Shown here: one piece after another, positions 38,063 through 60,943 of the stretch
How positions within the stretch are numbered: the stretch's first letter is position 1
Layout: each line of letters opens with the position of its first letter
From: a virus
IMG/VR virus record: IMGVR_UViG_3300024289_000027
Span: 1-64,000 of that record
Direction: 5' to 3' (one strand)
Length of the DNA: 64,000 bases
Notes under the pieces: generated by a model
Told to the model about the DNA's origin: nothing
The model's database searches: none
What the model saw: the letters and a program-made list of their open reading frames with translations, nothing else
Program-made: the position numbers and the translations under genes

Positions 38063-41000
38063 ATGCCTTTATCTCGTTTAGACAACTTCCTTCGTAATCC
38101 TGAAGGGAATATACTATATGTCGATCCTAACAATTTTGATGCTACAGACAGCATAGAGAATCGTGGAGATAGTCTTGTAAGACCATTTGTTTCAATTCAA
38201 AGAGCATTAATTGAAGCAGCAAGATTTTCATACCAACAAGGTAAGAATAATGATTTAAATGATAGGACTACCATTATGGTATATCCATCAACTCATTATA
38301 TTGATAATAGACCAGGATATTCAATCCAAGATGTTAATGGTAGTGCAGTATATAAAAAAAGAGTAGGTAAAGATACTTGGCAGACTACTACTTTAGATCC
38401 ATTATCTTTTTCTTCAAATTTTGATATTTTCGATACCAATAATGATCTTTATAAATTTAATTCTATTAGTGGTGGAGTAATTCTTCCTCGTGGTACATCT
38501 ATTATTGGTGTAGACCTTAGAAAAACCAAGATTAGACCACTTTATATACCCAATCCTTATGATGATGATGTCGATCTTTCTAGTATTTTTAATGTAACTG
38601 GTACTTGTTACTTCAGTACATTTACATTCTTTGACGCAGATACTACAAAGACAGTATTTAAAGATTACACAGACAATCGTTCTGTTCCTAATTTTTCTCA
38701 CCATAAACTTACAGCTTTTACATATGCTGATGGAGTAAATAAAGCACGTCTTGGATATGAACAAACAGATCTTACAGATCTGCAAATGTATTATTATAAA
38801 GTTGCCAGAGCATATGGTGACATCTCTGGAAGAGGTTTGGGTGATTATCCACTTAATAATGATTTTGAACCAAGTATAGATGAATACAGAATTGTTGGAT
38901 CTCTTCAATCAAATCCCTTAGGCATTTCAAGTATTCGTGCAGGAAATGGTGACGGTACAGGTGATAATAGTATTATTACTGTAACTACAGCAGATCTTCA
39001 AACAGGAACTCCTAAACCACATGGATTGTTTATTGATACCCCAGTTCTTATCTCTGGCATAACTGAAGAACCTGCATCATATAATGGGTCATTTGTTGTA
39101 AGAGAAGTTGTAGGTTTAACTACTTTTACTTTTAGTGCAGTATCTACTCCTACTAATTTATTGCCAGATCCTGCTGCTTTTGACACTGCTACTGTTGTTG
39201 TAGAAAGTGATACAGTATCTTCCGCATCTCCATATATCTTTAACTGTTCATTGCGTTCAGTTTATGGTATGTGTGGTATGCATGGAGATGGTAGTAAAGC
39301 AGATGGATTTAAATCCATGGTTGTTGCTCAATACACGGGAGTCTCCCTTCAGAAAGATGATAATGCATTTTTGATTTATGAGGATGGTGTTTATTATGAT
39401 AATTTAACTCTTCCTAATAACAGCACAGAGAGACCGTTACATACTAATTCTAGAGCAATTTATAAACCAGAATACGAAAATTTCCATATTAAAACCTCTA
39501 ATGATGGATTTATCCAATCTGTCTCTATCTTTGCCATCGGTTTTGCAAAGCACTTTGTAACTGAAAGTGGTGGTGACATGTCCATCACTAACTCTAACTC
39601 AAACTTTGGTGCAATTTCATTAGAAAGTGTTGGATATAGAAGAGAATCTTTTGATAGGGATGATGTTGGATACATCACTCATATTATTCCACCAAAAGAA
39701 ATTACTACTAATGAAAACCAAGTAACTTGGTTATCAATTGATACTTATAAAACTATAAATCCATCAAATACTTTAAAGAGATTATATATTTCTAGTTATA
39801 GTACTAAAGATGTTGCACCACCTTCTCAGACTGATGGATATCGAATTGGTGCTAAATTACAAGATAAATTATATTTAACTGTTACTCAAGGAACAGATCT
39901 TCAAACTTTTGAATCTCCAATATACATGCCAGTCCCTGGTGGTGGAGAAGGTGTAACATCGAAAAAAGAATATACAATTGCAAGAACTGGTGGTTTCAAT
40001 AATATATCTTCAAATATTTTAACTCTAACTCAAAACCATCAGTTGTTTAATGGTGAACGAGTAAGAATTTTTAGTGATACAGGTCAAGCACCTGATGGTA
40101 TTCAAATTGATAAAGTTTATTATGCAATTACTGGTGGATTCTTATCTGATAATCAAATACAACTTGCATTTTCATTAAATGATGCAATATCTAGAACTCC
40201 AATTCAAGGTATTGGAAATAATGGCGGAAGAATTACTGTTTTAAGTACAGTAAGTGATAAGTTCCCTGGAGATCTAGGTCATCCAGTCCAATGGGATGAA
40301 AATGTGGGATCTTGGTATCTTACAAGTTCTCAATTCACTGCTCAAAATAAAATTTATGGTGCAGTAGTTGGACTTGGAACTGAAATATTAGGATTGGAAA
40401 GTCCTTCAACTTATTTTAAGAGAAAATTAGATAATAGAGCAATTGAAGATAAGATTTATAAACTTCGTTATGTAATTCCAAAAGAATATACTTTTGCAAG
40501 ACCACCTCAGGCAGGATTTGTTCTTCAAGAATCTAAGAATGTTGGAATTTCTAGTTTGACTATTGATGAAGGCACTAACCTTCAGAGTCCAGTAGATTTG
40601 AGAAATGAAAAAGTTATTATCGATGCAATAGCAGATAGTATTGTCGATAATTCACAAGTAGTTACCATTACTACTGAAGTTCCTCATAACTTTATCCCTG
40701 GAGATATTGTAAAAGTTCAAAAGATTAAGAGTACTAATAATACTTCAGGAACAGGAATTGTTTCTACTTTCAATGGATCTTATCCTGTTGTTGATGTATT
40801 AGATTCTAAATCATTTAAATATAGAATTTCTGGGGTATCTACTAATCCAGGAAACTTCTTAAATGCAATAAATTCTCGTACAACAAGACAACAAAGAGAT
40901 GATCTTCCTTTAGTATCTAGAGAATCATATCTTGATAATTATTTTGCTTATCGTGTAAACACTGTCAAGAGACACATTCCAGGTGAAGATGGTCAAGATG

Positions 41001-44000
41001 GTATTTACCACATTATTATGTTGTCTTCGAGTGTAAGACCTGAAGAAATTGTTGGTTATGGTGTATCGGAAAAAACTTTCAATCAAGATGTTAGAAATCT
41101 TTATCCACAGACAGATAGAGATAATTATGCACCAGATCCATTACCATCGATCAGTTACGCAGATTTAAATATCTTAGGAAGAGTTGTAACAGATGATAAG
41201 AAGAAATCTACAACTCGTGAAGCATTAAATCAATTACTTAGAAATAGTAGAGTTGGATTTGGTATTACTGGACTTTCTATTTCTGGAACTGGTAATACTA
41301 CAATTACCCTTTATACTGATATAGAACATAAGTTAAATTCAATTAAGTCACTATCTGTAGTTTCTCCTGGTGCAGGATATCCAATTAGTTCTAGCATCTA
41401 TAGTGCAAATCTAATAGATCAATTCCTTTTAGAAGAAGATGCTACCTGTAGATTTAATACTACTGTAACTGGTGCAATCAATCCTTCAACTTTGAGATTG
41501 GTTGATGTTGGATCTGCTCATACTGTAGGACAGAGACTTGAAATTCAAGGAGGATCTGCTGGAAATAATGCTGTAGTTACGGTTCAGGATATTAATAATA
41601 ATGTAAATGATGCATTAGATCTTTCTGGATTCTATTCTACAATTCCATTGAATGGAACTTTTAAAATTATCGATGTTCTTGATAGTAAAACTATTAAAAT
41701 TTATCATCCAACTGGAATTTCTTCCTATGTAGAAAATAGCAATAATGATGTTCCTATTGGATATTTGGCATCTAAAGGAGTAGGAATAACTTCATTTAGT
41801 TTTACTAATGTATCTTCGGGAATTGTTACTGTAACTACAAGTCAACCTCACGGATTACTTCCTGGAAATAAAATTTCTATAGTTGGCAGTGGTCATACGA
41901 TGTACAATAGTACATTTGTAGTCCGTGATAACATTGGAATCAATACATTTACCTTTAATGTAGGAATCGTTACAGAAACTAAATCTTCAACTACTGGATT
42001 TGTATTTAAGCATGGTATATCTGCTAATGCTAAAAATCTTGGTAGAGGTGAAGAGAATTTAGGATCTCGTGCTTCTACAATCTATGCAGGTGTAACCACA
42101 ACTATTTCTCAAGGCATAACAGAAAATAGTACAATTATTCAACTACAAAGTTCTAATGGATTTTATAGAGGAGATTATATTGCTATAAACTCTGAAATTG
42201 TTAGACTTGCAAGTACTGCAAATGGTAATGAATTTGATATTCTCCGTGGACAATTCGGAACTGTTAAAACTACTGCACCTGTAGGATCTTTAATTAAGAA
42301 GATTAAAGTTCTTCCTATGGAATTACGTAGACCTTCATTCATGAGGGCATCTGGACATACATTTGAATATCTTGGATATGGTCCAGGTAACTATTCTACT
42401 GGTTTACCACAAAAACAAAATAGAATTCTTGATGAGGATGATATTTTAACATCTCAGGCAAGAGAGCAAAGAGGTGGAACAGTAGTTTATACTGGTATGA
42501 ATGACAGTGGAGAATTTTTCTCAGGAAGTAAGAAACTTATTTCTGCAACTGGAGAAGAAAAAGTAATTGAAGCACCAATTCTTACTTACACTGGTGATGA
42601 TGCAGAGGGTGAAAATAGCAATAGATTGAGTGGTGTATTTGATGAAATTCTTGTTCGTGAAAGAATTACTGTAGAAGGTGGAGAAAATAATAATCAAAGT
42701 TCTCAATTCTATGGACCAGTAAACTTTACTCAAAAGATCACTAATCTTTCTGAAGATGGAATCTTAACCAAGAATTTTTATATTCGTGGAACAGCATCTC
42801 AAGAAAAACTATTTACTGTTGGATTATCTACTCCAACTTCTGCAATCATTCCAAATCCAACTCTTGGTGATATTTCTTATATTTCAAACCCAACCAATGG
42901 TTATATTGGACACATTTATTTGGAAAATGAATGGAGACCTTGGGGACCTATTAGTAGAACTCCTGATATTTTAGACTTTAAATTTGATAAACTTGGAATA
43001 GGGACTATTGCCGTAGGTAATTATAATTTTAGTGTTAACGGTGATACTTTAATTCAAAACCTTCGTGTAACTGGACAAGTAGTTTTTGATCAAACTCAAA
43101 GTTTGGGTGATGTTGAATTTGAAGATATTGTTGTTAATAGAACTGCAAGATTTACTGGAACTGGAATTGATCCAATCACAGGACTTGGAACATCTTATAC
43201 TCAGATTCATGAGAGAGGTATATCTAGACTCAATCATTTAGAAGTAGTTGGTGTATCTACATTCTCAGGAAATGTTTATATTAATAATAATCTTTTTGTA
43301 GATTCAATTGAACTTGATGAAATTAGAGTAGGAATTGCAGCATCTCATATTATTGACACCAAAACTAGAGAATTGGTTCTCAAATCTAAATCTGGTGATG
43401 TAATTGTAAACTCTAATTTCAAAGTTGCGGATGGAAATGTTTCAATCTCTACGACAAGAAATATTAGTGTACCTAATTTAGGAGTCGTAACTGCATATAT
43501 TAATGAAGCATCTGTATTGAGACTTGGTGTAGGTAATACAAATCAAACATCTTATGCAGAATTCAATAATGATGTTAGAGTATTCCCTGATTATGGACTT
43601 CGCATTGGAAGATCTGCTGGAATTGGAAATGTAACTTCTGATATTTTACATCGTGGAACTGCTGCACTTAGATTAATTACTGTAGATTCTGCTGATGTAA
43701 GTATTTTTACCAACAATAGTGAGAAATTTAGAGTTGGATCTTCAGGAACAATAACATCATATCAAAATAATTCTGGTCAGAATCTTAGAGGTGCTCACTT
43801 TAAGATTAATCAGGGTGGAACTGGTGATGTTGCAATGTCTTGGGACATCACTCATAATAACTCAAATATTCGTTGGTATGCAGGTATTGATACAAGTGAT
43901 GGATATAGCTGGAAGTTAGCAAATCCTCTAGTAACAGTTCCATATGGTAATGAGAATTTTGATGTAGATGCTAAATTAAGAGTGGATCCAAATGGAAATA

Positions 44001-44803
44001 CTCTAATCTCAGGAGATCTGACTTTAGGTGGATCTAATTTTATATCTACTTCAACTGGAATATTCAATTTACTCAATACAAACGTTACTACAATTAATGC
44101 TTTTGGTAATGCTAATAATGTAAATATTGCTTCTAATTCTATTACTTCTAGAGTTAATATTCTTGGAACTACTGAATCGAATAATGCAAATACTGGAGCA
44201 CTTGTTGTTTCTGGTGGTGTGGGTATTGCTAAGAATTTAAATGTTGCTGGCAATGCAAGAATCAGTGGAATTGTAACGGTTAATCAAAATCTGATTGTTG
44301 ATGGCACTGCACAACTTGCTACTGTTGACATCAATGGTGGAAATATTGATGGTACAGTTATTGGTGCGGCTGTTCGTGCTTCAGCACAATTTACTTCAAT
44401 AAATGTAAATGCAAATTCTACATTTAATGGTAAAAATCTTACTGATGTTGTATTACAAAAATATGGTGAAACTGTTTATAACATGGGAGATATTGCAGGA
44501 AATCGAAATATTAATCTAAATGATGGAAATGTATTCATTGGAACTTTAACTGCTAATTCTACATTTACAATCACAAATCCAATTAATCTTCCTAATGTTG
44601 GCAGCAGTTTCACTTTAATTTTAACAAATGGAACTGGTGGTCCATATTCTGTTTCTTGGAATCCTTCAAGTAATGTTAAATTCCCAAATAACTTGAGTCC
44701 AATTAGAACTCAAGATGCAGGAAAAACTGATATTTGGATTTTCATTACTCCAAATCAAGGTACAACTTGGTATGGTAATATAGCACTCTATAATTTCTCA
44801 TAA
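38063..44803 (+). CDS. Giant virion structural protein, 2,246 aa
   Basis: The largest gene in the window. The N-terminus has NILYVDPNNFDATDSIENRG and IQRALIEAARF, similar in layout to the beta-helix start in the 30,989 protein. Long beta-rich repeats follow, including ITVTTADLQTGTPKPHGL-type and VTVTTSQPHGLLPGNKISI units that look like repeated Ig-like or hub modules, and the C-terminal 700 residues are fibre-like (VSGGVGIAKNLNVAGNARIS). No S74 domain is present. I infer a long fibre or baseplate-anchored adhesin. No frame break was seen. Confidence 0.7.
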   Translation: MPLSRLDNFLRNPEGNILYVDPNNFDATDSIENRGDSLVRPFVSIQRALIEAARFSYQQGKNNDLNDRTTIMVYPSTHYIDNRPGYSIQDVNGSAVYKKRVGKDTWQTTTLDPLSFSSNFDIFDTNNDLYKFNSISGGVILPRGTSIIGVDLRKTKIRPLYIPNPYDDDVDLSSIFNVTGTCYFSTFTFFDADTTKTVFKDYTDNRSVPNFSHHKLTAFTYADGVNKARLGYEQTDLTDLQMYYYKVARAYGDISGRGLGDYPLNNDFEPSIDEYRIVGSLQSNPLGISSIRAGNGDGTGDNSIITVTTADLQTGTPKPHGLFIDTPVLISGITEEPASYNGSFVVREVVGLTTFTFSAVSTPTNLLPDPAAFDTATVVVESDTVSSASPYIFNCSLRSVYGMCGMHGDGSKADGFKSMVVAQYTGVSLQKDDNAFLIYEDGVYYDNLTLPNNSTERPLHTNSRAIYKPEYENFHIKTSNDGFIQSVSIFAIGFAKHFVTESGGDMSITNSNSNFGAISLESVGYRRESFDRDDVGYITHIIPPKEITTNENQVTWLSIDTYKTINPSNTLKRLYISSYSTKDVAPPSQTDGYRIGAKLQDKLYLTVTQGTDLQTFESPIYMPVPGGGEGVTSKKEYTIARTGGFNNISSNILTLTQNHQLFNGERVRIFSDTGQAPDGIQIDKVYYAITGGFLSDNQIQLAFSLNDAISRTPIQGIGNNGGRITVLSTVSDKFPGDLGHPVQWDENVGSWYLTSSQFTAQNKIYGAVVGLGTEILGLESPSTYFKRKLDNRAIEDKIYKLRYVIPKEYTFARPPQAGFVLQESKNVGISSLTIDEGTNLQSPVDLRNEKVIIDAIADSIVDNSQVVTITTEVPHNFIPGDIVKVQKIKSTNNTSGTGIVSTFNGSYPVVDVLDSKSFKYRISGVSTNPGNFLNAINSRTTRQQRDDLPLVSRESYLDNYFAYRVNTVKRHIPGEDGQDGIYHIIMLSSSVRPEEIVGYGVSEKTFNQDVRNLYPQTDRDNYAPDPLPSISYADLNILGRVVTDDKKKSTTREALNQLLRNSRVGFGITGLSISGTGNTTITLYTDIEHKLNSIKSLSVVSPGAGYPISSSIYSANLIDQFLLEEDATCRFNTTVTGAINPSTLRLVDVGSAHTVGQRLEIQGGSAGNNAVVTVQDINNNVNDALDLSGFYSTIPLNGTFKIIDVLDSKTIKIYHPTGISSYVENSNNDVPIGYLASKGVGITSFSFTNVSSGIVTVTTSQPHGLLPGNKISIVGSGHTMYNSTFVVRDNIGINTFTFNVGIVTETKSSTTGFVFKHGISANAKNLGRGEENLGSRASTIYAGVTTTISQGITENSTIIQLQSSNGFYRGDYIAINSEIVRLASTANGNEFDILRGQFGTVKTTAPVGSLIKKIKVLPMELRRPSFMRASGHTFEYLGYGPGNYSTGLPQKQNRILDEDDILTSQAREQRGGTVVYTGMNDSGEFFSGSKKLISATGEEKVIEAPILTYTGDDAEGENSNRLSGVFDEILVRERITVEGGENNNQSSQFYGPVNFTQKITNLSEDGILTKNFYIRGTASQEKLFTVGLSTPTSAIIPNPTLGDISYISNPTNGYIGHIYLENEWRPWGPISRTPDILDFKFDKLGIGTIAVGNYNFSVNGDTLIQNLRVTGQVVFDQTQSLGDVEFEDIVVNRTARFTGTGIDPITGLGTSYTQIHERGISRLNHLEVVGVSTFSGNVYINNNLFVDSIELDEIRVGIAASHIIDTKTRELVLKSKSGDVIVNSNFKVADGNVSISTTRNISVPNLGVVTAYINEASVLRLGVGNTNQTSYAEFNNDVRVFPDYGLRIGRSAGIGNVTSDILHRGTAALRLITVDSADVSIFTNNSEKFRVGSSGTITSYQNNSGQNLRGAHFKINQGGTGDVAMSWDITHNNSNIRWYAGIDTSDGYSWKLANPLVTVPYGNENFDVDAKLRVDPNGNTLISGDLTLGGSNFISTSTGIFNLLNTNVTTINAFGNANNVNIASNSITSRVNILGTTESNNANTGALVVSGGVGIAKNLNVAGNARISGIVTVNQNLIVDGTAQLATVDINGGNIDGTVIGAAVRASAQFTSINVNANSTFNGKNLTDVVLQKYGETVYNMGDIAGNRNINLNDGNVFIGTLTANSTFTITNPINLPNVGSSFTLILTNGTGGPYSVSWNPSSNVKFPNNLSPIRTQDAGKTDIWIFITPNQGTTWYGNIALYNFS

Positions 44804-44825: not shown

Positions 44826-45428
44826 ATGAATATGAATGAAACTTATAAAGATTTTGTAGGAATGTATAAGGATGTTTATCCTGATGGATTTTGCAATCAC
44901 ATGATTTGTGAATTCGAAAGATTCCGTGAAGGTGGATATTGTGGAAATAGGCAGGATAGTGAAAATACTACAAAAACAAAAAAGCAGGATGAATTTTTCT
45001 TTTTAAATCTTAAGAATCATTCTTTTTCTTCTTTTAATGGATTTTCTGCCACTGATATTTTTTTTGATGGACTTCAGAGATGTTATGACTCTTATGTGAG
45101 AGAATATGATGTTCTTAATGATTTAAATATGAAATGTACAAGTGTTAAAGTACAAAAAACTCTTCCCGGTGGTGGATATCATGTATGGCATTGTGAACAG
45201 GGAAATGGTGATTCTTCTGCTAGAGCATTAACTTATATTTTATATCTTAATGATATTGATGAAGATGGTGCAGGGGAGACTGAACTTTTATATCAAAGAA
45301 TGAGAATACCCCCACAAGAAAATTCTCTTGTTATTTTCCCTGCTGCATATACACATACACATAGGGGAAATGTAGTTCATGGCAATAAATCCAAATATAT
45401 AGTAACAGGTTGGTTTTATCTAGAGTAA
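44826..45428 (+). CDS. Prolyl-4-hydroxylase-like 2OG-Fe(II) oxygenase
   Basis: This 200-residue protein has the double-stranded beta-helix of 2-oxoglutarate/Fe(II) dioxygenases. GGGYHVWHCEQ (about 115-125) provides H-x-E instead of the usual H-x-D iron ligands. YILYLNDIDEDGAGETELLY, FPAAYTHTHRGN with the distal histidine, and KYIVTGW with the 2-oxoglutarate-binding lysine follow. The family hydroxylates prolines or other side chains. It ends 7 bases before a collagen-like Gly-X-Pro gene, its obvious candidate substrate. Expression is probably late from CATAAATA at 44799. Confidence 0.85.
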   Translation: MNMNETYKDFVGMYKDVYPDGFCNHMICEFERFREGGYCGNRQDSENTTKTKKQDEFFFLNLKNHSFSSFNGFSATDIFFDGLQRCYDSYVREYDVLNDLNMKCTSVKVQKTLPGGGYHVWHCEQGNGDSSARALTYILYLNDIDEDGAGETELLYQRMRIPPQENSLVIFPAAYTHTHRGNVVHGNKSKYIVTGWFYLE

Positions 45429-45435
45429 AAAGCAA

Positions 45436-47103
45436 ATGGCATTTGGAATCACTAGAAGAGCAACAAAAGCAACAATGACCCCTCCTGGGTCAATTACTTT
45501 TTACGCACCTGCTACTTGGCAGGCACCTTCAACTAGAATTACTCGTGTAAATTTGGAAGGTATAGGTGCCAAAGGTTCTTCTGGAACTGATGGAACTGCT
45601 GGATTACCTGGTGATGCTGGAAATCGAGGAAGTGATGGTACAGCAGGTCCTGCAGGACCTGCTGGAAATAAAGGGAGTGATGGAAATGTTGGGGCAGGTG
45701 GAGACCCTGGAAATCCTGGAACTGGGGGTCGTGGAGGTGCTGGTGGATTTGGGTTTGCAAATGCTGGTTGTACTGGTGCCTCTGGGGGTGGAGGTGGAGG
45801 AGGTGGAGGTGCCTGGGGACCTAAAAAATCTGTAGGGGCAGGAAATCAAAATGGTAGATCTGGTGCAGGTGGGAATGGTGCAAATGGTAGAAATGGTGGA
45901 TGTACTGGAAATCGTCCAGGTGGTGCAGGTGGAGCTAGTGGTACTATGGGTTATGAATTAATATCAGCATATGGTACTGGTGGAGATGGTGGAAATGGGG
46001 GGAATGGTGCAAATGGTGAACCTGGCAATCAAGCTAATAATATTGGACAGCCTGGAGGTAATGGATCTTCTGGGTTTGGTGGTGGGCCTGGTAGAAACGG
46101 AAGTATAGGTAGTCCTGGAAATTTAAATACTAATGCTACTTCATTTCCAGGTACTGATGGTTTTCCTGGAAATTTAAATGCAAACAGTCCAGGTAAATCT
46201 GGATCTAGTGGTTTACCTGGAAATATTGGTTCTTCTTCTAGAATGTTGGGATATAGTTTTGTAGGTGGTGCTGGAGGATTAGCTGGAACTGGAAATTTTG
46301 GAACACCTGGAACTGTAGGTGAACGTGGAATTGCAGGAAATGCAGGAGGTCCAGGGAGTGCAGGTTTTGGTGGAGATGCTGGAAATATAGGTGAACCTGG
46401 GAGTGCTGGAAATGGAAATCGAGGTGAAGATGGAACTCCTTCTAATTGGAGGGGTGGTCCTGGAGGTTCTGGTGGTGGAGGTGGTGGTGCCGGTCGTCAT
46501 GGTAAAGTTTTAGCAGGTGGTCCGGGGGGAAGTCCGGGTAATGGTTCTGCTGGGGGATGGGCTAATGGTGATAATGGTGGAAGTGGTGGAAATTCTGGAA
46601 ATGGTGGTGCTGGGGGATTTGCAGGAGGTAGAGAATCGAATGGTAGGGGAAATCCTGGGGGTGATGGAACTGATGGTGGTGGAGGAGGTGGAGGAGGTAA
46701 AGGTAGTGGAAGTCCTTCAATTGGTAATAAACTAGGGAACCCTGTTGGTGGAGGAGGTGGAGGAGGTGGAGGAGGTCATGGGATTGGAGGTTCTGCTCAG
46801 TCAGGTACTAATGGTTCTGGGGGGAGAGATGGGTATGGAAATCCAGGAATTTATGGAAGACCTGGTAATATGAATCCTGGTAGTTATGGAACTCCAGGTC
46901 GAGCTGGAACTGCTGGGAATTTAAATACTGCTAGTTATGGTAAACTTGGTGCTGCTGGCAGTCCAGGTAATGCAAACAAAGGTCTTCCTGGATCTGTTGC
47001 AAATTTAACTAAATATAATGATATTTCAATCAATCCATTTCAATTATATGATGTTGTAGTCCCAGATGGAGGATTTATAACTGTGAGATGGTATGCACAA
47101 TAA
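45436..47103 (+). CDS. Collagen-like glycine-rich fibre protein
   Basis: A 555-residue protein: a 40-residue start (FYAPATWQAPSTRITRVNLEG) is followed to about residue 518 by Gly-X-Y-like repeats (GTAGLPGDAGNRG, GPAGPAGNKG, GDPGNPG) interrupted by poly-Gly runs, ending with a folded tail (YNDISINPFQLYDVVV). Prolines often occupy the Y position (LPG, DPG, NPG, EPG, QPG, SPG), the position hydroxylated in collagen. The fold could be a collagen triple helix or the polyglycine-II sandwich of phage adhesins. It is probably a virion fibre or tip adhesin. Gene position after the oxygenase suggests modification. Confidence 0.85.
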   Translation: MAFGITRRATKATMTPPGSITFYAPATWQAPSTRITRVNLEGIGAKGSSGTDGTAGLPGDAGNRGSDGTAGPAGPAGNKGSDGNVGAGGDPGNPGTGGRGGAGGFGFANAGCTGASGGGGGGGGGAWGPKKSVGAGNQNGRSGAGGNGANGRNGGCTGNRPGGAGGASGTMGYELISAYGTGGDGGNGGNGANGEPGNQANNIGQPGGNGSSGFGGGPGRNGSIGSPGNLNTNATSFPGTDGFPGNLNANSPGKSGSSGLPGNIGSSSRMLGYSFVGGAGGLAGTGNFGTPGTVGERGIAGNAGGPGSAGFGGDAGNIGEPGSAGNGNRGEDGTPSNWRGGPGGSGGGGGGAGRHGKVLAGGPGGSPGNGSAGGWANGDNGGSGGNSGNGGAGGFAGGRESNGRGNPGGDGTDGGGGGGGGKGSGSPSIGNKLGNPVGGGGGGGGGGHGIGGSAQSGTNGSGGRDGYGNPGIYGRPGNMNPGSYGTPGRAGTAGNLNTASYGKLGAAGSPGNANKGLPGSVANLTKYNDISINPFQLYDVVVPDGGFITVRWYAQ

Positions 47104-47126: not shown

Positions 47127-47795
47127 ATGGCTTCAAAAAAGAAAACTAATGAAATACGTGAAAAAATAAATCAAATTTATGAAGAAAATGAATTAGCAGG
47201 ATTGAAAGCAAGTAAAAGTAGAGCTAGATCAGTAACAGTGGGAACTGCATTTGGTGGTGTAGTCGAAATATCAATGAGGGGAGACTATTATAATCTTTGG
47301 TCTGTTCTTCAACCTGTAGAAGTTATTGAACTTATAGAACAATTAGCCTCAGGAGTAGGACTTCAAATTGCTATGAGACCTAGACAAGATTTTGCTTCCT
47401 GGAGGGGGTGGAATTTAGATGCTGACGATAGATATTGGGCAGGTGCTGCACCTTGGCAAATGCAACAGGTAATGGAAACACATAAAAAATCTTTAGAAGG
47501 AAATACTGAAGAGAAAAAGGCACTTCCCACAAAAACAAAATCAAAGAAAAAAAATAAATCTTTTGATATTGAAGAACAATCTAAAAAAGTATTTGAAGAG
47601 TTAAAAATTCAAGAAGAAATTTCTGATAATTTGGGAAAAGAACCATTAAAAAATCTTGAAAAATTAAGAGAAAATGTTAAAAAAGATAGGAAAAAGAGTG
47701 AAAAAGAAATAGCTAAACGTAGAGTTATACAATCAATTGAAAATGGTGCAGATCCCGACCAAGCTTGGAAAGATTATGAAGAACATTTTAGTTGA
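47127..47795 (+). CDS. Hypothetical protein, 222 aa
   Basis: The N-terminal half (30-120) is a small beta/alpha domain (SVTVGTAFGGVVEISMRGDY, PVEVIELIEQLASGVGLQIA, RPRQDFASWRG). The C-terminal half is charged and coiled-coil-like (KKKNKSFDIEEQSKKVFEEL). AAGGAG lies 12 bases before the ATG. I do not know its function; context suggests a fibre or assembly role. Confidence 0.65.
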   Translation: MASKKKTNEIREKINQIYEENELAGLKASKSRARSVTVGTAFGGVVEISMRGDYYNLWSVLQPVEVIELIEQLASGVGLQIAMRPRQDFASWRGWNLDADDRYWAGAAPWQMQQVMETHKKSLEGNTEEKKALPTKTKSKKKNKSFDIEEQSKKVFEELKIQEEISDNLGKEPLKNLEKLRENVKKDRKKSEKEIAKRRVIQSIENGADPDQAWKDYEEHFS

Positions 47796-48381
47796 TTTAT
47801 ATTTTGAAATAAATCCAAAAGAAAAAAAAATTTTAAGTCCTCCAGAAAAATTAGAAATAAATTGGAAAAATATTTCAGGAATTGTATATCTTAATAAAGA
47901 TGAACTTTATGATCTTTCTTGGGCAGGATATCCAAATCATGGGTTCTTAAAATTTTCAAAAGAAAATGAAAAAAAGTTGAAAGAATTTGAATGTGATAGT
48001 ATACTATTTGAAATTATAAAGTCTCAATTCAAAGATCAAATAAGTTCATTAAGATATGAAATAGAATGTTCAGGGATTAATATCGATAATAGATATGAAA
48101 TATCTACCGACGATAGATCTAAAACATTATTGCTATTAAAATATTTGGAATGTAATTCTAATAATGATTTAAAATTCAAATGGAAATCAAAAAGTGGATT
48201 TATTGATTTTACTTCAAGTGAATTTATTAAAATGGTAAATGAAATTCAAAAATTTTTTCAAAAACTATTTGACTTAGAATTTGATCTTAATAATCAGATT
48301 GATAAATGTAATGATATTTTAGATATTTTTTCATTGATTTCAAATGATATTTCTTGGCCCTCTAATATGATAAAAATATGA
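47776..48381 (+). CDS. DUF4376-like putative fibre-assembly protein
   Basis: The part ECSGINIDNRYEISTDDRSK (about residues 96-115) resembles DUF4376, a domain of phage tail-fibre-associated proteins (G-I-x-V/I ... I-x-T-D-x-x-S/R). I chose ATG 47776 (201 aa), which has GGAAAG just upstream and overlaps the previous gene by 20 bases; an earlier ATG at 47737 is possible. It overlaps the next oxygenase-like gene by four bases. Function unknown. Confidence 0.5.
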   Translation: MKNILVDLYFEINPKEKKILSPPEKLEINWKNISGIVYLNKDELYDLSWAGYPNHGFLKFSKENEKKLKEFECDSILFEIIKSQFKDQISSLRYEIECSGINIDNRYEISTDDRSKTLLLLKYLECNSNNDLKFKWKSKSGFIDFTSSEFIKMVNEIQKFFQKLFDLEFDLNNQIDKCNDILDIFSLISNDISWPSNMIKI

Positions 48382-49046
48382 TATCTAAATTTTTAAAAAG
48401 TAAAAATATCATTAACATGGTCAGACCATTGATAGATGAAGATGAACTTAGTGTAGTTAATGCAAAAGAATATTATTTAAAAAATTATAATAATAATGGT
48501 TTATTTTATTATTATAGTGATTTATTTAAAGATAATGAATTGAATAAAATAATTTCCATTTGCAATCGTATTCCTGAAGTTGATGCATTAGTTTCAACTA
48601 ATAATGATTTAGAAATTCAAACTAGAATTTCTAAATTATCTTGGGTTCCTGTTAATAATGTAACAGAATGGATTTATCAAAGATTAACTGATTGTATAAA
48701 TTATGTTAATTCTGAGTATTTTAAATTTGATTTAGAAAAAATTGAAATGCTTCAGTTTACAAAATATTATGGAAATACTAAGAGTTTTTACAAACCACAT
48801 TTGGATACAATATACAATAATGTTCCACACGATAGGAAACTTTCTTTTGTATTACAACTTTCAGATCCGTCTGAATATGAAGGTGGTGAATTGAGATTGC
48901 ATTTAAGTAAAACTCCTCAAATTATAGAAAAGAAAAAAGGATTAATTACATTTTTTCCATCTAATGTTCTTCATGAATGTACTCCTATTACAAAAGGAAC
49001 TAGATATGTTCTTGTTGGTTGGGTAATTGGTCCAAGATTTAAATAA
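48378..49046 (+). CDS. 2OG-Fe(II) oxygenase, PKHD/PiuC-like
   Basis: A second oxygenase with complete iron ligands: YKPHLDTI gives H-x-D, LSFVLQLSDPSEYEGGELRL is the typical core, SNVLHECTPI supplies the distal histidine, and GTRYVLVGW the arginine for 2-oxoglutarate. The PKHD-type hydroxylase family includes prolyl and lysyl hydroxylases and siderophore-related proteins. It is 222 aa, or 209 aa from an inner ATG at 48417. Substrate unknown; nearby fibres are candidates. Confidence 0.82.
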   Translation: MISKFLKSKNIINMVRPLIDEDELSVVNAKEYYLKNYNNNGLFYYYSDLFKDNELNKIISICNRIPEVDALVSTNNDLEIQTRISKLSWVPVNNVTEWIYQRLTDCINYVNSEYFKFDLEKIEMLQFTKYYGNTKSFYKPHLDTIYNNVPHDRKLSFVLQLSDPSEYEGGELRLHLSKTPQIIEKKKGLITFFPSNVLHECTPITKGTRYVLVGWVIGPRFK

Positions 49047-49051
49047 AAATT

Positions 49052-49648
49052 ATGATAGAACCTCAAAATTTTAAAAGTGATCATTATAAAATAATTAGAA
49101 ATTTTTTAGAAGAAGATTTTGTTGAATTTATCCAAGATTATTTTACATTGAAAATTAATTCAAGTGATATTAATCTTTATCAAAATACTTATGATTTTTG
49201 TTATGATTCTCTGTCTGAAGTTATATTACAAAATTCATGTGAACCTTTAGGTGAGATTTTAGGAATTAATATACTTCCAACATATAGTTTTGTTAGAATG
49301 TATATGAAAGGTGATCAATTACAGTACGATGTAAATAAAAATTCTGGTGAAATTACGGCAATTTTATCTTTAGGATTTTCAAAAGAAAATGATGTAGATC
49401 CAATCCACCTTAATAGAGTTAATAAACAATTTGATTCTATTGAAATTAATTTAAATCCGGGTGACCTATGTATCTTTGACAGTAGATACTTATCAAATTC
49501 TGGACCAATTTCTAAAAGTAAATGGAATCTTCAATGTTTTTTACATTTTGTTGATGGAAATGGTTCAAATAAAAAATTAATTTATAATGGTAGGACGTAT
49601 CTTGGATTTGGTTTTGATAAATGTATAAATAACGAAGAGTTAAAATAA
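49052..49648 (+). CDS. Oxygenase-fold protein lacking iron ligands
   Basis: The overall order YSFVRMYMKGDQLQYDVNKN ... SGEITAILSLGFS ... LNPGDLCIFDSR ... LQCFLHFVD matches a family of 2OG-Fe(II)-type phage and bacterial proteins that usually has L-P-x-H-x-D at the first site. Here this segment reads L-Q-Y-D-V-N, so both ligands seem to be lost, and the distal histidine site reads SNSG. I infer a degenerate, possibly non-catalytic partner or binding protein. It follows the PKHD-type gene by 5 bases. Confidence 0.6.
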   Translation: MIEPQNFKSDHYKIIRNFLEEDFVEFIQDYFTLKINSSDINLYQNTYDFCYDSLSEVILQNSCEPLGEILGINILPTYSFVRMYMKGDQLQYDVNKNSGEITAILSLGFSKENDVDPIHLNRVNKQFDSIEINLNPGDLCIFDSRYLSNSGPISKSKWNLQCFLHFVDGNGSNKKLIYNGRTYLGFGFDKCINNEELK

Positions 49649-58849: not shown

Positions 58850-60943
58850 ATGCAAAATATATCTCTTAGTGAAAACCAATTAGAACGTGAACGTATCATA
58901 GAGATTTCTCCAGATACTGTTCCAATAGAATATACTCCAAATGAAATTGATTCATATAAAGTAATAGTTAAGGATGAGAATGATTGGGAAGAAATTCATA
59001 ATTACATTGTGAATGAAAATGAAATTGATGGTATTCCTAATCGAAAAATTGAATGTGAAAATATTGAAGAATATTCATTGAGAACCTCTGTTTATACTAT
59101 GAGTCCTGAAGAGGCTGAAATCCTCAGGACTCATCCTAAAGTTGAAAGTGTAGTTTTAGATCCATCCATATATCCTCAACCTAAATCACTTTTTGTATTA
59201 AGAAGGTATGGTAAAGATGTAGCTTTTAATAAACCAGGATTTACTGCTGCCCCCTTCATGGCAACAAATAGATTTCATACAGTAACTCATACAAATGGTG
59301 TAAGATCAAATTGGGGACATCTTTTTGTAAATAATCCTTCCAGTGAACCTTTTCGTGGTGTTGGTATTGCATCTACAACACGAGTAGACACTGACATAGA
59401 CTATACAGTTACTGGTGCTAATGTTGATTGTGTAATTATAGATTCTGGTGTAACTCCTTTACATCCAGAATTTAGAAATGCTGATGGATCTACTAGAGTT
59501 AAAGATGTTATATTAGATGGTCCTTACAAAGTAGATCCTGAATATTTTAATTCTAGAGGATTAACTTATACAAAAATCGTAGATGGAGTAAATTTGGGAG
59601 TTGGAATTGCAACTACTGCTGCACATAGTTGGTGGTCAAATCCATCCAATAGATCTCCACAATTTAGTGGTATTGGGTATGCCACATTTAGTTCTTTATA
59701 TACTTTAGCTCATACTTCAACTAAAACACCAAATTCCAATGGAAATCAACTTGTAGATGGGCATGGAACTGCATGTGCTTCTCAAATTGGAGGAAAATCT
59801 TTTGGATTGGCATATGAATGTAATGTATGGGGATTCAGAATTGCTTTAGGTGGTGTTGGGGGAATTATTGATGCATCGATAGCATTAAATATTTGTGCTA
59901 TGTTCCACAATGCAAAAAAAATATCTCAAAATGGAGATCCAGATCCAACATTAATTAATAATAGTTATGGGTGGACTTCATCTACAGGTAATAATAGTGG
60001 CACTACTTATACTCATGGATATAGGGGTTCTACATTAACTTATGTAGGAAATGCGAGTCTATTAAATCCACCAGCAAACTCTGGAGCATGTAGGAATCAT
60101 AAGTATTTTACTTATAACACGGGAGTTACTACTAGCACTACTGCTTATTCTGGAACTGGACAGTATTCTCCTCTTTCACCTGCTGGTGCTGATAATGCTG
60201 GAGCAGAAAATGCAATTGCTGCAGGATGTATAGTAGTTTCTTCTGCTGGAAATACCAATCAAAAACTTTCGGATGTTAATGATATAGATTATAATAATTG
60301 GTATTCCACTAGTACTAATTATATTAATCGAGTTGGTGGAGTTCAAAAAGGTGGTGCAAATGTTGAGACTCGAAAGCAAGGAACAATTCGAGTTGGTGCT
60401 TTAGATTGTGGTGTAGAACCTGTAGGTTCTAGACAAGGATCTGCTCCTTATTCTGTCAGAAAAGTTTGTTATTCTGCAAATGGTCCAATGATTAATGTTT
60501 GGGCACCTGCAGAAATGACTATGGCTGCTGGTTATACTTCTACTTATGAAGATTTTGTAAGACAAGATAATACAAGTTTTTATGATACTTGGTTCAATGG
60601 AACAAGTTCAGCTGGTCCAAATGCTTGCTCAGTTATAGCATTGTATCTGCAACAAAATAGAAGTGCAAGTCAAAGTGATGTTCACGATTGGTTAGAATTA
60701 TATGGAAGTAGAGACATAAACATGTCAGATCCATATCCTGATCCAAATGAAGTTGGTTATTGGTCACAGACTTATAATGCACTAACGGATTATCCTGATT
60801 CTGCTGGTGACTCATACAACCTTAGAGGTAATGGTAATTTAAGAGGTTCTACGAGTAGAGTACTTTTTAATCCCTATGCATTTGATAGTACTACTACTAT
60901 TTCTGGGGTTAGTTTTGAAGGGATTTCAATTTCGGCAATTTAA
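58850..60943 (+). CDS. Subtilisin-like serine protease (S8 family)
   Basis: A 697-residue protein with a complete catalytic triad: D198 (VIIDSGV), H305 (DGHGTACAS) and S586 (FNGTSSAGP), plus SAGN (465-468) and NNSYG that fit the oxyanion region. Residues about 70-108 (VYTMSPEEAEILRTHPKVES, then VVLDP) look like an I9-type inhibitory propeptide. No signal peptide is visible. It lies between fibre genes and is probably late-expressed and virion-bound, acting on host surface proteins or on fibre maturation. Substrate unknown. Confidence 0.88.
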   Translation: MQNISLSENQLERERIIEISPDTVPIEYTPNEIDSYKVIVKDENDWEEIHNYIVNENEIDGIPNRKIECENIEEYSLRTSVYTMSPEEAEILRTHPKVESVVLDPSIYPQPKSLFVLRRYGKDVAFNKPGFTAAPFMATNRFHTVTHTNGVRSNWGHLFVNNPSSEPFRGVGIASTTRVDTDIDYTVTGANVDCVIIDSGVTPLHPEFRNADGSTRVKDVILDGPYKVDPEYFNSRGLTYTKIVDGVNLGVGIATTAAHSWWSNPSNRSPQFSGIGYATFSSLYTLAHTSTKTPNSNGNQLVDGHGTACASQIGGKSFGLAYECNVWGFRIALGGVGGIIDASIALNICAMFHNAKKISQNGDPDPTLINNSYGWTSSTGNNSGTTYTHGYRGSTLTYVGNASLLNPPANSGACRNHKYFTYNTGVTTSTTAYSGTGQYSPLSPAGADNAGAENAIAAGCIVVSSAGNTNQKLSDVNDIDYNNWYSTSTNYINRVGGVQKGGANVETRKQGTIRVGALDCGVEPVGSRQGSAPYSVRKVCYSANGPMINVWAPAEMTMAAGYTSTYEDFVRQDNTSFYDTWFNGTSSAGPNACSVIALYLQQNRSASQSDVHDWLELYGSRDINMSDPYPDPNEVGYWSQTYNALTDYPDSAGDSYNLRGNGNLRGSTSRVLFNPYAFDSTTTISGVSFEGISISAI

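Follow-up and report, generated by a model that had tools for sequence, protein, structure and literature searches.

Gene content of the fibre cassette

The window is a stretch of 64,000 nucleotides (positions 1 to 64,000) of IMGVR_UViG_3300024289_000027, a viral contig of 86,447 bases. Two of its plus-strand genes are separated by a gap of only 7 bases: an oxygenase gene (44826-45428, 200 aa), which we call oxygenase B, and a gene encoding a glycine-rich protein of 555 aa (45436-47103). An ORF check confirmed both reading frames and their spacing as given in the original prediction. The pair and its surroundings comprise the following features:

38063-44803, plus strand: tail-fibre gene opening the cassette, 2246 aa (PHROG 529 tail fibre; its C-terminal region recurs upstream in 35/36 loci)
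44826-45428, plus strand: oxygenase B, prolyl-hydroxylase-like 2OG-Fe(II) dioxygenase (PF13640; predicted fold most like those of PHD2 and P. putida P4H)
45189-45197, plus strand: codons of the H122-C-E124 iron motif (invariant, 46 homologues; aligns with the HxD of a solved P4H)
45360-45362, plus strand: H179 codon, probable distal iron ligand (invariant; aligned with a His of 6iuq)
45393-45395, plus strand: K190 codon, probable 2OG-binding residue (invariant; aligned with an Arg of 6iuq)
45436-47103, plus strand: glycine-rich protein, likely both substrate and tip of the fibre (555 aa with 197 Gly and 37 Pro; homologues downstream of the enzyme at 79/80 loci)
45565-45753, plus strand: longest Gly-X-Y run, 21 triplets, residues 44-106 (a weak Pfam Collagen match spans 44-101)
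46291-46416, plus strand: second Gly-X-Y run, 14 triplets, residues 286-327
47127-47795, plus strand: companion protein, family unknown (homologue in 36/36 loci; without Pfam or PHROG match)
47776-48381, plus strand: DUF4376 protein (ORF opens with TTG at 47737, ATG at 47776; PF14301, E 1e-6; 36/36 loci)
48378-49046, plus strand: oxygenase A, canonical H-x-D (PF13640, E 1e-16; 32/36 loci; H-x-D in 81/82 homologues)
49052-49648, plus strand: oxygenase C, degenerate in this virus (DVN; H-x-D in other aligned homologues)

The gene content of the record, with phage tail tube, tail and fibre families, fits a T4-like cyanophage, and ORFs resembling psbD, talC and gnd can be read from translations of the window. 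For phage typing, the T4-type major capsid (PF07068) and head-tail connector (PF12236) families gave no matches, but the controls were equally empty, so these searches say nothing about phage type. At 58850-60943, an ORF among the fibre genes carries subtilisin-like motifs, as read from the sequence.

Oxygenase B has an intact and invariant iron site

Oxygenase B matches Pfam PF13640 (E 5e-13) and PHROG 61 (E 2e-38). Its residues H122-C-E124, H177/H179 and K190 are invariant across 46 aligned homologues, and H122, E124, H179 and K190 align with their counterparts in the solved P4H 6iuq. The alignment contains the complete iron triad and the basic 2OG residue, with Glu in place of the usual Asp. 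This H-x-E site had been regarded as unusual. Because the motif is invariant in the 46 aligned homologues, it is instead normal for the group, and, judging from these sequences, H-x-E is a trait of the oxygenase B clade (46/46). The same invariance rules out decay or damage of the site, which we also considered. The more distant S-CAM3 enzyme likewise has H-x-E (WHYE).

An AlphaFold model of oxygenase B, built with 46 homologues (pLDDT 84), predicts a prolyl-hydroxylase-like fold, in agreement with the enzyme class first proposed for this gene. Among the 50 Foldseek matches listed, 49 are structures of the PHD type or of P. putida P4H (E 1e-9 to 1e-8, TM about 0.53-0.68), and the complex of P. 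putida P4H with EF-Tu is one of the best. The fold matches also include the solved PHD2 D315E structure 4uwd, which shows that an H-x-E-type site is able to bind metal; a literature search on PHD2 D315E found no paper. At the level of family profiles, similarity to solved structures is weak and confined to the P4H of PBCV-1 (E 3.5e-4) and those of Bacillus (E about 6e-3).

The P4Hs of PBCV-1 (5c5t) and Bacillus anthracis (3itq, 5hv0), PHD2 and P. putida P4H have in common with oxygenase B the modelled double-stranded beta-helix fold, the His/acid/His iron site and a basic 2OG residue. Oxygenase B differs from these known enzymes in having H-x-E instead of H-x-D, in its remote sequence similarity to them and in its constant linkage with a glycine-rich phage gene.

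Oxygenase B is paired with a glycine-rich gene in one clade

Scanning IMG/VR with oxygenase B gave 572 relatives; we retrieved the best 80 (52-100% identity). In 79 of these best 80, a glycine-rich ORF, defined as having over 25% Gly and counted if adjacent or after one further oxygenase gene, lies within 1.2 kb downstream of the enzyme. The sole exception is L050, a contig that ends 85 bases past the match. For the reverse scan, we used only the N-terminal ~45 residues of the glycine-rich family as seed and examined the best 80 of 148 matches, which yielded 68 new loci. Treating all reverse matches as independent was rejected, since 23 of the 68 new loci are on contigs already seen; 45 were therefore counted. 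An oxygenase lies upstream on 44 of these 45 further contigs, and the contig of the remaining one (L125) begins 511 bases before the glycine-rich gene. Across the loci examined, some of them on contigs that are near-copies of each other, the pairing is genuine and close to complete. The adjacency survey of relatives suggested in the original prediction was thus passed strongly, with both exceptions at contig ends.

A maximum-likelihood tree of 71 sequences, with several long branches in the outgroup, unites the partnered enzymes in a single group (97/91). Beside out-of-clade relatives, no glycine-rich partner was found at 15 loci of cultured or single-cell phages, yet some of these relatives also adjoin fibre genes. 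Likewise, 79 of 80 relative loci in bacterial assemblies have no glycine-rich neighbour. The one bacterial-assembly locus with the pair (L165, 47% identity) falls inside the clade; it is a Verrucomicrobiales MAG contig and may be a phage contig binned with its host. Homologues regularly lacking a Gly-X-Pro neighbour, which had been named as evidence against the proposal, were seen only outside the oxygenase B clade. For example, the T4-like GC 240 oxygenases of cyanophages (S-PM2, Syn1, S-CAM3) belong to the same superfamily, with 33-37% identity, and also adjoin a fibre gene, but they are outside the clade and are followed by a 'tail assembly chaperone' gene, without a glycine-rich partner.

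A conserved cassette surrounds the pair

In all 36 distinct loci with enough flank, we found a core made of oxygenase B, the glycine-rich gene, the companion gene and the DUF4376 gene, with the fibre C-terminus upstream in 35 of the 36. With pairing on 79/80 and 44/45 contigs, a single clade and a single conserved cassette, the earlier suggestion that enzyme and probable substrate form one unit is supported. Further oxygenases are found before or after the core: A in 32 of the 36 loci, C in 20 and D in 20. Because only B is constant among the cassette oxygenases, we tie oxygenase B to the glycine-rich protein. Oxygenase C has DVN in the window virus and in an identical virus (L008), while all other aligned homologues have H-x-D; in the window virus it is, from its sequence, probably a pseudo-enzyme retained in the cassette. 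The companion protein (47127-47795) carries the motif RARSVTVGTAFGG ... DFASWR and is a candidate assembly factor.

A published suggestion for the function of cyanophage oxygenases in general is metabolic (PMC3037559), with consumption of 2-oxoglutarate tuning host nitrogen signalling. For oxygenase B we regard this as very improbable, as it would leave unexplained both the strict pairing with one structural gene and the position within a fibre cassette. We also find it rather unlikely that the enzyme acts on some other protein, such as the upstream fibre, the companion or a host protein like EF-Tu, the target of P. putida P4H. One of the best fold matches is the EF-Tu complex, and the cassette conserves the fibre and companion almost as well as the glycine-rich gene; even so, such a target would account neither for the density of X-Pro-Gly in the neighbouring gene nor for the missing partner of out-of-clade relatives, some of which are also beside fibre genes.

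The glycine-rich protein resembles polyglycine-II adhesins

The original prediction had taken the glycine-rich protein for a collagen-like Gly-X-Pro fibre, with reference to the proline hydroxylation that stabilises the collagen triple helix. The protein has just two long Gly-X-Y runs, the remainder consisting of GG-rich motifs interrupted by other segments. Its Pfam Collagen match reaches 25.1 bits, under the cut-off of 27.2, and its short homologues have no such match, while a genuine collagen-like ORF on contig L104 scores 136 bits. Across the family, the longest Gly-X-Y run has a median of 9 triplets (maximum 55), and GG is frequent. The aligned homologues carry beta segments at either terminus and share conserved Gly motifs, blocks of GGGGGG and stretches that vary.

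Two traits of polyglycine-II adhesins are found here: loops of variable sequence among Gly-rich motifs, and a gene that follows the fibre gene. Gly-rich motifs split by variable segments also occur in gp38 of Salmonella phage S16, reported to be a polyglycine sandwich in which some segments vary (PMC6851490), and in cyanophage Pam3 gp24, which resembles S16 gp38 and ALK and whose lattice of Gly-rich motifs carries a variable tip for receptor binding (PMC9608196). Like the window gene, the gp38 gene comes after its fibre gene. Unlike at the window locus, no oxygenase adjoins S16 gp38, and there is no detectable sequence homology of S16 gp38 or Pam3 gp24 to the window protein. Pfam searches of the window protein and four homologues found no gp38 or PF21722 homology, and no PHROG match was found for the glycine-rich proteins. 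With tblastn, two glycine-rich homologues had no matches in cultured phages, for which low-complexity filtering is perhaps responsible.

Because the 555-aa window protein aligns poorly mid-sequence, the fold was modelled with AlphaFold on a 301-aa homologue (L014), as a monomer. The model is partly confident, with three good parts (roughly residues 17-50, 131-165 and 250-298) and poor loops; the terminal beta segments have high confidence. In the PDB, its first six matches are to Bxb1 tail-tip, Pam3 fibre and ALK chains (E 0.16-1.5, non-significant). Against predicted viral structures the best E is 6e-5; most of these matches are phage proteins without names, and some are tail-fibre or glycine-rich domain proteins.

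Given the composition, the family scans and the homologue model, a polyglycine-II fibre tip is favoured over a triple helix, which members with runs of up to 55 triplets may nevertheless form. Both the polyglycine-II packing and the fibre-tip role are what we infer from these likenesses, and an ordinary collagen is probably not the substrate. A genuine triple helix of the collagen type, with hydroxyproline stabilising it as it does animal collagen, would fit the window protein's runs of 21 and 14 triplets (up to 55 in relatives) and the weak Pfam Collagen match. We nonetheless judge it quite improbable in view of the score below the cut-off, the short median run with frequent GG and the confidently modelled terminal beta segments.

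Two or three glycine-rich paralogues lie next to a single cassette on some contigs (L104 at 2259, 3405 and 5001; L014 at 5541 and 6450; L009 at 690 and 5628), hinting at duplication and variation of the tip.

Prolines are concentrated before glycine

The window protein has 17 prolines in G-X-P-G and 2 in G-P-Y-G. We permuted the remaining residues with the Gly positions fixed (2000 rounds), which gave an expectation of about 7.7 of each; none of the 2000 shuffles reached 17 and 0.5% fell to 2. The repeated placement of Pro in the Y position noted in the original prediction thus far exceeds shuffled expectation. The X residue of these motifs is varied in the window protein (L, D, N, E, Q, S, T, F, R).

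The bias extends to the family. In 91 distinct partner proteins, G-X-P-G outnumbers G-P-Y-G by 1011 to 53, at 3.28 per 100 Gly-rich residues. Two control sets gave 27 versus 20 (0.49 per 100 Gly-rich residues; 25 PF21722 matches from bacterial genomes) and 7 versus 1 (0.54 per 100; nine gp38 adhesins of T-even-type phages). G-X-P-G density is therefore about six times higher in the oxygenase-partnered proteins than in the controls, whose genomes may still encode hydroxylases. While gp38 proteins have a six-fold lower density, they too show a 7:1 preference, so the Pro-before-Gly bias is partly structural and typical of such proteins. Accordingly, we rejected Pro before Gly alone as proof of hydroxylation.

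On the same contigs, collagen-like ORFs of the classic kind show a Pro bias opposite to that of the oxygenase partner. Three ORFs from 6725 onwards on L104 and one at 9998-10597 on L024 place Pro in X, with counts of 55:8, 60:13, 27:1 and 25:6. Bacterial collagens carry Pro in X.

Animal P4H enzymes prefer Pro at X. Across the glycine-rich family, Asn occupies X in 768 of 1050 G-X-P-G motifs, so Asn is itself a possible target. X-Pro-Gly is the recognition triplet of animal P4H (PMC8968730). The pairing evidence is equally compatible with oxygenase B modifying the glycine-rich protein elsewhere, most plausibly at the Asn of Gly-Asn-Pro-Gly or at a variable-loop residue. We consider this unlikely, since the fold and the nearest solved relatives are those of prolyl hydroxylases and, in the window protein, X varies while Pro is constant.

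A proposed tail-tip modification unit

We lean modestly towards a dedicated tail-tip modification unit. Oxygenase B, a putative prolyl-hydroxylase-type 2OG-Fe(II) dioxygenase encoded among fibre genes, would hydroxylate X-Pro-Gly prolines in the neighbouring glycine-rich protein, using O2 and 2-oxoglutarate supplied by the host cell. The glycine-rich protein would most likely be the receptor-binding tip of the preceding fibre. In such a tip, short terminal beta segments would hold Gly-rich motifs packed as polyglycine-II helices, and the variable loops between the motifs would form the contact surface. Hydroxyproline before Gly may stiffen these helices or add surface hydroxyls. Both the choice of the glycine-rich protein as substrate and that of Pro as the modified residue are our inference.

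In favour of this mechanism are the gene order with its two-way, clade-wide pairing, the single clade, the core in 36/36 loci, the fold, the intact and invariant catalytic residues, and the density and position of the X-Pro-Gly motifs, with their G-X-P-G excess. Against it are the predominance of Asn at X, the structural part of the Pro bias seen in gp38, the three further oxygenases in many cassettes, which may share the work, and the partly confident L014 model with its non-significant PDB matches.

A related case is Mimivirus, which is likewise reported to encode Gly-X-Y proteins together with the enzymes modifying them (PMC9546862). Mimivirus is an amoeba virus with true collagens, whereas we describe a bacteriophage, probably a non-collagen protein and a strict gene pairing. 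In the full-text literature searched, outside which most subscription papers lie, no title or abstract was found on a phage hydroxylation system of this kind.

Possible implications for phage receptor-binding tips

Cyanophages have many 2OG-Fe(II) oxygenases without known function. What is new here is the near-complete pairing of oxygenase B with a glycine-rich gene, which gives the oxygenase B clade a concrete candidate substrate, testable with two genes. In addition, the cassette serves as a marker for a large, uncultured family of glycine-rich proteins that the Pfam and PHROG models searched do not recognise.

Judging from their sequences, this cyanobacterial virus and many uncultured phages related to it may chemically modify the part that grips the host, much as animals modify collagen. 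We put at about even chances the broader view that phages hydroxylate proline in their own receptor-binding tips through a co-inherited prolyl hydroxylase, acting on polyglycine-II helices and not on collagen. If true, phage tail tips would bear a post-translational mark paid for in O2 and 2-oxoglutarate. Such a mark would affect how the host is recognised, the stability of fibres and the chemistry of glycine-rich adhesins.
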